Below are positions 43,103 through 60,293 of a stretch of 64,000 bases of DNA, piece by piece. The position numbers and the translations under genes are program-made. A model generated the notes under the pieces. The model saw only the letters and a program-made list of their open reading frames with translations, made no database searches and was not told where the DNA came from. The DNA is taken from NCBI RefSeq assembly GCF_019739195.1, contig NZ_JAHHDS010000003.1, forward strand, positions 930,001 through 994,000, written 5' to 3'. The DNA comes from Microcella sp. Its GTDB lineage: Bacteria; Actinomycetota; Actinomycetes; Actinomycetales; Microbacteriaceae. The number at the start of each line of letters is the position of its first letter. Position 1 is the first letter of the stretch.

Positions 43103-43423
43103 ATGGGAACACTGACGTACGACTCGACGCTGTCAGCGGACTTCGACGACCGCACGCTCGCGCACCTGCAGATTGTGATGGGTGCGAAGCTGCGTCGCAA
43201 CGAGGCTTTCTACTTCAGCTGGAAAGATGATGCCTCGATCGGTAACGGTCGCAGTGTGATCTGGATGCACCCGACGATTCCGGTCGCCTTCAAGTTTTTC
43301 GGCAGCCGCCCTCCTGCCATCAACCGCGCATGGATCGACGAGCTCATGCTCTTGGCGAACACGCCCGCTGGTTTGCATTTGATTCCGGAACCCAGCGCTG
43401 ACGCCAACGGAGAGGAGTCATGA
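43103..43423 (+). CDS. DUF7882-family small protein
   Basis: 106 residues with the family pattern MGTLTYDSTLSADFDDRTLA, LRRNEAFYFSWKDD, and INRAWIDELMLLANTP. It is a compact alpha/beta protein abundant in Microbacteriaceae; older annotations call it 'ATP-dependent DNA ligase', without any ligase motif visible here. Function unknown. AAGGGGG ribosome site. It is coupled by ATGA overlap to the next small gene, and a homologous pair lies 1.1 kb downstream. Confidence 0.85.
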   Translation: MGTLTYDSTLSADFDDRTLAHLQIVMGAKLRRNEAFYFSWKDDASIGNGRSVIWMHPTIPVAFKFFGSRPPAINRAWIDELMLLANTPAGLHLIPEPSADANGEES

Positions 43424-43659
43424 TGCGCACGAACATCCACTACGGCGGTCAGGAATACATCGTTCCGAAGCACGCGAGCGACCTCAAGGTCGAGATCGAA
43501 GAGATTCTCGCCACGGGTTCAGCCGGATGGCTGCGGGTGAACCATGGCCGCGGCCAGCTGCAGGTGGCCGATCTGCTGATTCACCCCGGCGTCTCCATCG
43601 GGCTCATCGACACGAGCGACCCCGAGCACAGTGCAGGTCTCGACGACGACGACGACTGA
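43420..43659 (+). CDS. Small partner protein of DUF7882
   Basis: 79 residues. NIHYGGQEYIVPKHASDLKV, then VNHGRGQLQVADLLIHPGVS, and an acidic tail of five Asp. The pattern YxGG, then A-D-L-L-I-x-P, recurs at 44622-44882 and 59952-60293. GAGGAG precedes the ATG at 43420, which overlaps the DUF7882 stop; an ATG at 43423 is an alternative. Likely one two-gene module. Function unknown. Confidence 0.75.
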   Translation: MMRTNIHYGGQEYIVPKHASDLKVEIEEILATGSAGWLRVNHGRGQLQVADLLIHPGVSIGLIDTSDPEHSAGLDDDDD

Positions 43660-43675
43660 CCCGACAGCGCACACG

Positions 43676-43713
43676 ACGAGGGGCCGATGCCATGACTGGC
43701 ATCGGCCCCTCGT
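43676..43713. terminator. Strong bidirectional hairpin
   Basis: Perfect 16-bp arms, ACGAGGGGCCGATGCC and GGCATCGGCCCCTCGT, with a 6-base loop. It lies between the convergent partner gene and the GlsB-like gene and probably ends both. Confidence 0.85.
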
Positions 43714-43726
43714 GTTGCGTGGTGGA

Positions 43727-43996
43727 CTATGCCGCCGAACGCGAGCCCCGCGTGACGAGACCGTAGATCAGCAGCACGAGGATCGAGCCACCGATGGCCA
43801 GCAACCAGGTGCTGAGATCGAAGAAGCCCTCGATGCCGACGCCAAAGATCTGGCTGCCGATAAAGCCGCCGAGCAGTGCGCCGACCACGCCGAGCACGAG
43901 GGTGATGATCCAGCCGCCGCCCTGACGACCCGGCAGAATCGCCTTCGCGATCGCTCCGGCAATCAGTCCGAGAATGATCCATCCAATGATGCCCAT
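43727..43996 (-). CDS. GlsB/YeaQ/YmgE-family stress membrane protein
   Basis: 89 residues with three hydrophobic helices; IGWIILGLIAGAIAKAILPG and GVVGALLGGFIGS are the family repeat. Related to the transglycosylase-associated family of general-stress proteins. A GGGAGG ribosome site is seen. It stands alone, convergent to the DUF7882 module. The spacer 43997-44202 has a CCCCC-GAAT-GGGGG hairpin but no gene. Confidence 0.9.
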   Translation of the reverse strand: MGIIGWIILGLIAGAIAKAILPGRQGGGWIITLVLGVVGALLGGFIGSQIFGVGIEGFFDLSTWLLAIGGSILVLLIYGLVTRGSRSAA

Positions 43997-44202
43997 GTCG
44001 ACCTCCCAGTCGAGTAGATACTGCGGCCCTGCACCTCAAGGCCCGCAACACCTAAGCACAGGCCGAAGATGCGCACCCACCCCTTGTCACGGCACCAGCA
44101 TGCGTGCTATTGCACATGTAGTACCCCCCGAATGGGGGTCAGAATGCGCTACGCTCGCCACTGCCGCTGGGCGGTCACTGAATACGTCGTGAGGGGAACG
44201 GC

Positions 44203-44508
44203 ATGGGGATACTGCGCTACCAAAACGAAGAGTTTTCGTTCGACGACCGGATGCTCGCGCATCTGCAGATCGTCATCAGCACCAAGCTTCGACGCTCTGA
44301 GAACTTCTTTTTGTCGTGGGCGGTGCCCGTCGAGGGCGGTGGCGGGCGCCACGCGCTGTGGATCGACAACGGCGTGCCGGTGCACATCACCTACTCGGGT
44401 TCGCGCGCACCTCAGATCAACCGTGAGTGGATCGAATCGCTCATCCTCTCGTCTGCTACGGGCGGAGTGCACATCACCGACGACCCCCCAGTGGCCTCAG
44501 TGGAGTGA
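44203..44508 (+). CDS. Second DUF7882-family small protein
   Basis: 101 residues, homologous to the protein at 43103: MGILRYQNEEFSFDDRMLAH, LRRSENFFLSW, INREWIESLILSS. Strong GAGGGGA ribosome site. It is followed after 113 bases by a small partner gene, as in the first module, but without overlap. The similarity of both genes to the first pair suggests duplication of a two-gene unit. Confidence 0.82.
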   Translation: MGILRYQNEEFSFDDRMLAHLQIVISTKLRRSENFFLSWAVPVEGGGGRHALWIDNGVPVHITYSGSRAPQINREWIESLILSSATGGVHITDDPPVASVE

Positions 44509-44621
44509 CCCGCGAGCGCCGCAGCTTCGATCGGTGTAGTCGCTGAAGACGGTAAGCGCAAGGCCTGGTTCTGCGCGAGGGTGCGGGCGTAGCGTGAAGG
44601 CCTACCGAGGAGGCCTGCTTG

Positions 44622-44882
44622 ATGACGAGTTCCACGATCCTGACGATCAACCATCAGCACATTCCGCTCGCAGATGATGTTGAGGTAGATGACCTCATCA
44701 AGGCGGTCGTCTCGGCTGTGCACGACGGCGGAGGTTTCGTGCACATCATCGGCCGGCATGGTGACCAGTACGACGTGCTGGTCACGGCCGCGACCCCGGT
44801 CATGGTTCGTCACGGCTCCGCGGCCTTCGAATCGAGTGGCACGGGTGGCCCGTGGATCACGAGCATCGATCTCGATATGTGA
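44622..44882 (+). CDS. Second small partner protein
   Basis: 86 residues from the ATG at 44622, with GAGGAGG eight bases upstream (a TTG at 44619 is also possible). ILTINHQHIPLADDVEVDDL and then GGGFVHIIGRHGDQYDVLVT follow the same two-part layout as the partner at 43420, though similarity is low. Function unknown; probably a diverged copy of the same small family. Confidence 0.7.
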   Translation: MTSSTILTINHQHIPLADDVEVDDLIKAVVSAVHDGGGFVHIIGRHGDQYDVLVTAATPVMVRHGSAAFESSGTGGPWITSIDLDM

Positions 44883-59951: not shown

Positions 59952-60293
59952 TCACATTCCCCAGTCGTACTGGTCGAGGTCCATGACGTCGGCGACGTCT
60001 TCGCTCCACTCCGGGCGATCGGGATCGAGCTCTTTCGTGCGCGACTCGAGAATCTCGACCATGCGCGAGTCGGCCAGATCGATGTCGAGGTCGGCGGTCG
60101 GCACCGAAAGAATCTGGCTTGCTGGTCCGATCAGAATGTGTGCGACACCCTTGCCGAACTCTTCGGTGAACGCCGGCAGAATGATCAGGTCAGAAGTATT
60201 GTGGTGCGACAACGCACGGGCGTAACGCAGCACCGCCTTGCACACCTGGTCGCTGATGATGATGGATCCGCCAGAGTAGTAGAGCTTTCTCAT
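59952..60293 (-). CDS. Small hypothetical protein (YSGG family)
   Basis: 113 residues. MRKLYYSGGSIIISDQVCKA and VAHILIGPASQILSV resemble, in order and spacing, the partner proteins at 43420 (YGGQEYIVP, ADLLIHPGVSIGLI). The C-terminus is acidic and ends LDQYDWGM. It is a conserved Microbacteriaceae type without function. The ATG at 60293 has AAGGG directly against it, so the start is not certain. Confidence 0.65.
   Translation of the reverse strand: MRKLYYSGGSIIISDQVCKAVLRYARALSHHNTSDLIILPAFTEEFGKGVAHILIGPASQILSVPTADLDIDLADSRMVEILESRTKELDPDRPEWSEDVADVMDLDQYDWGM

Follow-up and report, generated by a model that had tools for sequence, protein, structure and literature searches.

The closest described relatives of the genes studied here belong to DUF7882, a family that the authors of the work on CryoRhodopsins deposited and that was described in 2025 as a putative transducer of these photoreceptors (PMC12227055). 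According to section 13 of that study, a co-transcribed CDS adjoins the rhodopsin in all its genomes, and the protein was predicted to be pentameric and placed at the C terminus of the rhodopsin, an arrangement likened to the pentameric bacterial PH domains (PMC12227055). Other described systems concern genes or folds that we met around this family. The PadCs of Agromyces and Microbacterium have been studied, as has the red-light regulation of such cyclases, and the actinobacterial PadCs were inferred to have lost a fused EAL domain (PMC9587094). A bipartite RsbQ-PAS sensing module with a diguanylate cyclase output is known (PMC3183031). Finally, structures are available for DUF3107/Rv3208A (PDB 7rus, 7rur), and Rv3208A is a protein of unknown function (PMC5108770).

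We analyzed a stretch of 64,000 nucleotides (G000:C3:930001-994000, hereafter the window) which contains two DUF7882 genes (A1 and A2), each followed by a small partner gene (B1 and B2), and a gene of a third family (C) further away (Table 1). A1 and A2 resemble the CryoRhodopsin transducers in that they fall in the same family by profile and are small and predicted to be soluble. They differ in their setting, since the CryoRhodopsin paper has one co-transcribed CDS, and the part of it considered here includes neither a B or C partner nor a cassette with phytochrome and c-di-GMP genes (PMC12227055). A falls in a family already described, whereas B and C are families unnamed in the copies of Pfam and NCBIfam that we used. 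In the open-access literature searched, we found no description of the coupled A-B module or of a phytochrome/EAL cassette with DUF7882. What is apparently new is that most DUF7882 copies have no adjoining rhodopsin and that a cassette containing phytochrome-GGDEF and EAL genes also includes DUF7882 and B. Published work asks how CryoRhodopsins signal; the transducer family is far wider than the rhodopsins, has two unnamed gene-linked sister families, and is kept next to a second, unrelated type of photoreceptor.

Table 1. Genes of the window discussed in the text (positions are those of the window)
Gene	Position	Strand	Length (aa)	Characteristics
A1	43103..43423	+	106	Coupled A-B type; Pfam PF25355, 129 bits; in the tree with the coupled A-B rows
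B1	43420..43659	+	79	Start within the A1 stop (ATGA); no Pfam or NCBIfam match
Transgly_assoc small membrane protein	43727..43996	-		Between both pairs, outside the module; PF04226, 36.5 bits
A2	44203..44508	+	101	DUF7882; PF25355, 109 bits; in the tree with EAL-linked copies
B2	44622..44882	+	86	Partner of A2; phmmer relatives of its own; separate B clade
C	59952..60293	-	113	Member of a third family, at 15 kb from A2; its phmmer relatives occur close to DUF7882 genes

Two gene pairs of different kinds

The first-pass annotation of the window, made from the sequence alone, had proposed the five open reading frames and the assignment of A1 and A2 to DUF7882. These are real, both A proteins scoring far above the Pfam cut-off of the family (27 bits), and the ATGA overlap reported for the first pair is there as well. 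The closest named relatives of A1 are from Microcella and related metagenome bins. Searches of B1, B2, and C against Pfam at E 1 matched no family, and among the three only B2 gave matches in NCBIfam, two in number and far under the cut-off. The start of B2 was set at the ATG at 44622, a TTG at 44619 being likewise open, and its match to the B profile (E 2e-14) is that of a protein which is itself one of the 64 rows of the profile. The partner motif that had been noticed (YxGG, then P..I) is found in B1 and in C and is absent from B2. The partner-like character noted for C was borne out by profile comparison, in which C is distantly related to B (E 1e-6, better than all 60 column shuffles), and the homologues of C in other genomes often adjoin A-B pairs.

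The two pairs had also been taken for copies of one duplicated two-gene module, a view that we had to abandon. A1 and A2 share 43-45% identity and belong to different clades, while B1 and B2 share 14%. A tree built from 169 A proteins places A1 among eight coupled rows (SH-aLRT 98) and A2 with three EAL-near rows and a protein of locus L276, which has EAL-type B genes as its neighbours (SH-aLRT 91, branch not starred). The corresponding tree for B, with 83 proteins, separates B1 from B2 by a 100/100 branch; both trees are based on few columns and come with long-branch warnings and many weakly supported forks. Judged by sequence, the pairs of the window are not a local duplication, and because the A and B trees set both pairs apart, the locus seems to harbor two module types side by side. 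A1-B1 is most likely the common type of coupled module, from which C is displaced by 15 kb, and A2-B2 most likely a different module, whose relatives adjoin c-di-GMP enzymes. The order A-B, Transgly_assoc, A-B recurs in two other loci (L033 and L035). Separately, the gene next to C (window:58246-59937(+)) encodes an RYRRI.RFA stretch in common with the product of L276:2310-4079(+), a gene that is also close to A and C in G055.

Distribution and relationships of the three families

Microbacteriaceae are bacteria of soil and water. DUF7882 was found in 97 of 150 genomes of this family, with up to 17 copies per genome; the 14 control genomes lacked it. At the level of the order, 16 of 198 genomes were positive, 13 from the same family and three from other families. 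We picked 40 of the 150 genomes, 30 with DUF7882 and 10 without, and found B in 19 and C in 23 of the positive genomes and neither in the negative ones. Across the 30 positive genomes, a DUF7882 gene is found no more than 1 kb away from 23 of 34 B genes (0.15 expected) and 23 of 60 C genes (0.26 expected), and 28 of 136 A genes are within 1 kb of another A (0.48 expected), where the expected counts, here and below, are Poisson values for uniform gene placement and rounded genome sizes and the observed ones are not independent events, as many linked loci are inherited synteny. These counts use 136 of 138 A rows, the second fragments of two broken genes being dropped, and 60 of 61 C rows, without a 25-residue fragment (G016:C2:951525) at 36 bases from an A. 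Broken DUF7882 copies, seen as overlapping fragments in different frames, are found at G106:C1:606898-607184 and G008:C3:463725-464001.

Gene overlap was studied in 42 distinct same-strand pairs in which B follows A. The genes overlap in 30 of them, by exactly four bases in 21, and a C gene lies inside 1.5 kb in 13. The pairs come from both locus sets with starts chosen by script, and they are biased in favor of sequences like A1, which served as the query for the 59 named loci; when only the 30 genomes are counted, 11 of 15 pairs overlap. Before removal of duplicates there were 44 pairs, 29 of them from named loci (L192/L041 and L259/L056, with contigs of equal length, are probably duplicate records, and identical pairs were taken out). 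Another 33 B genes adjoin an A on the opposite strand. A lack of conserved pairing had been named as a result that would speak against the set; such pairing of A and B is seen in co-occurrence, in clustering far over chance, and in gene overlap across genera. Against a tight pairing counts that 94 of the 136 A genes have no B or C inside 1 kb.

Small overlapping genes, many copies, and patchy occurrence are also what one might expect of toxin-antitoxin pairs. We regard this explanation as highly improbable, given the many A genes without a close partner, a gene order that is alike over several genera, the apparent relatedness of A and B, and the lack of any match of the five window proteins at E 0.1 to the known defence systems of PADLOC, a resource for defence that does not cover all toxin-antitoxin types.

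Profile comparison ties A to B, B to C, and B to DUF3107. The single-chain models of A and B have a common bb-a-bbb core, which is the topology of the AF2 model of B1 (pLDDT 87). A, B, and C most likely represent a single superfamily with three branches, made up of tiny cytoplasmic proteins that share this core, C having been compared by profile. Unrelated folds had been named as a result that would speak against the set; for A and B the predicted cores agree, and C is joined by its profile. In searches with single family models, DUF7882 matched one of 64 B members (E 0.0025) and none of 48 C members, and the Pfam model of DUF3107 (PF11305) matched none of the same 64 and 48 proteins at E 0.1. 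DUF3107 differs further in that each of the 30 genomes has a single copy of it as a separate gene. The earlier suggestion of an undescribed small-protein set in Microbacteriaceae, whose paired members may bind each other, has gene-level support in the co-occurrence, clustering, overlap, and matching predicted cores, while "undescribed" does not apply to DUF7882 (PMC12227055).

In a 90-row alignment of A, the polar residues D16, R17, H21, K29, R31, R32, E34, R50, W54, N74, and W77 are kept, and K29 L30 R31 R32, G49 R50, and N74 are near-invariant. The 30 genomes encode 133 A proteins with 95 or more residues, of which 109 have KLRR and 119 a DDR-type start. B has neither the A signature (DDR, KLRR.E, GR, N..W) nor the C-terminal helix that goes with it. 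Since the kept polar positions of A are absent among the conserved columns of B and of C, a docking or ligand site is probably located on A.

Two further tiny families, D and E, with 16 and 32 proteins in the loci collected, adjoin A genes, for example at L066:4544-4873(-) and L202:2490-2741(-), and have no Pfam match. By profile, D and E are related (hhalign E 3.7e-9) and show no relation to A, B, or C; the window holds no member of either.

Sensor genes beside DUF7882 copies and a possible role

Only three of the 136 A copies adjoin a rhodopsin, leaving 133 with none beside them. The three occupy two places in the A tree, and a single origin is possible. No rhodopsin is near the pairs of the window, the sole rhodopsin match of this genome being at C2:99737 and the pairs on C3, and none of the sensor genes that we tracked lies beside them.

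A second type of photoreceptor also occurs near A. In 27 of the 59 named loci, with labels given by phmmer, an EAL-type B gene, an adjoining convergent EAL gene, and one or more A genes occur together; a BphP-GGDEF gene is present in 22 of them, and an RsbQ-like hydrolase with a PAS-GGDEF gene in four. A Pfam check of the L066 copies gave PAS_2-GAF-PHY-GGDEF for the phytochrome gene near A. The likeness to PadC is one of this neighbour, not of A itself, and the arrangement differs in that a separate EAL gene and A and B genes accompany it. In L066, L090, and L091, the genes directly upstream of A encode an RsbQ-like hydrolase and a PAS-GAF-GGDEF protein; Pfam identifies the hydrolase as an alpha/beta hydrolase, and the RsbQ label is our own reading. 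Here too the described RsbQ-PAS module corresponds to a neighbour of A and not to a homologue, and the portion of the report on it considered here does not mention a DUF7882-like gene (PMC3183031). As a separate observation, L060-L086 (Microbacterium, Agromyces) have a stand-alone EAL gene close to a phytochrome-GGDEF gene without EAL.

As some copies adjoin light sensors and second-messenger enzymes, these tiny proteins probably serve as shared connectors in environmental sensing. We give about an even chance to the reading in which A proteins are ring-forming cytoplasmic adaptors of environmental sensors, with B co-assembling and C as an optional subunit. A, B, and C would assemble as small rings or sheets, an idea that draws on the published pentamer prediction for A and on the oligomers seen in solved structures of a protein that may share the fold of B, and the assemblies would dock onto sensor proteins and relay their signals as adaptors or transducers. 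B would be a probable second subunit, tuning or capping the A assembly, because it is devoid of the A signature and C-terminal helix and is co-made with A via overlapping genes. C would be a further optional subunit. A broader version, which we find doubtful, is that of a combinatorial kit peculiar to Microbacteriaceae, where A, B, and C ring subunits would be interchangeable transducers linking varied sensors (CryoRhodopsin, phytochrome-cyclase, RsbQ-like/PAS-cyclase) to common outputs, the A-B overlap would set the ratios of mixed rings, and the "rhodopsin transducer" would be a special case.

The same neighbourhoods could be explained if A and/or B were effectors of a second messenger, c-di-GMP or another nucleotide, with the Lys and Arg residues of A binding the ligand and B modulating. 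Besides the 22 phytochrome-GGDEF loci and the near-invariant basic positions of A, this is favored by the GGDEF or EAL genes found no more than 5 kb from 15 of 136 A genes (1.34 expected), counts that are not independent because the 15 copies come from nine genomes and many are one inherited cluster, and by the six of 30 EAL genes within 1 kb of a B in the 30 genomes (0.03 expected). We used 53 GGDEF and 30 EAL rows for these counts, after dropping 12 GGDEF and five EAL from A-negative genomes and merging two G014 fragments. On the other hand, eight of the 30 A-positive genomes have no GGDEF match, G047 has GGDEF and no A, C shows no link in proximity to GGDEF or EAL, and the Pfam matches of the window proteins and of the 64 B members include no c-di-GMP domain. 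This makes the effector reading decidedly unlikely in our view, and the adaptor reading is the one that we keep.

Stress genes and upstream elements

Other neighbours of A raise the question of whether these proteins are products of a general-stress regulon with a structural or protective role, rather than signal adaptors. In the 30 A-positive genomes, nine of 35 CsbD genes are within 20 kb of an A (1.99 expected), when a control with tRNA synthetases remained near expectation (six of 129; 6.78 expected). The excess of CsbD is modest within 5 kb (three, 0.53 expected). Genes for DUF7218, SDR, Transgly_assoc, Dps, and Ku recur beside A, those for Dps and Ku being recognized by reading the sequences alone, and 25 of the 136 A genes have such a gene within 2.5 kb, a count without control. 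The regions upstream of A showed no prominent promoter-like dyad, and a stress role would leave the conserved pairing with photoreceptors unexplained, so that we consider this explanation unlikely.

Two observations on these regions may be added. The element CCCAGACCC occurs 29-95 bases 5' of the A start in L202, L204, L207, L246, L249, L250, and L293, six of these seven loci being from two genomes. Small DUF7218/Rho_N proteins are encoded within 2 kb of A in six of the 30 genomes (L184, L230, L238, L280, L281, and L291; Pfam assignment from the L230 copy).
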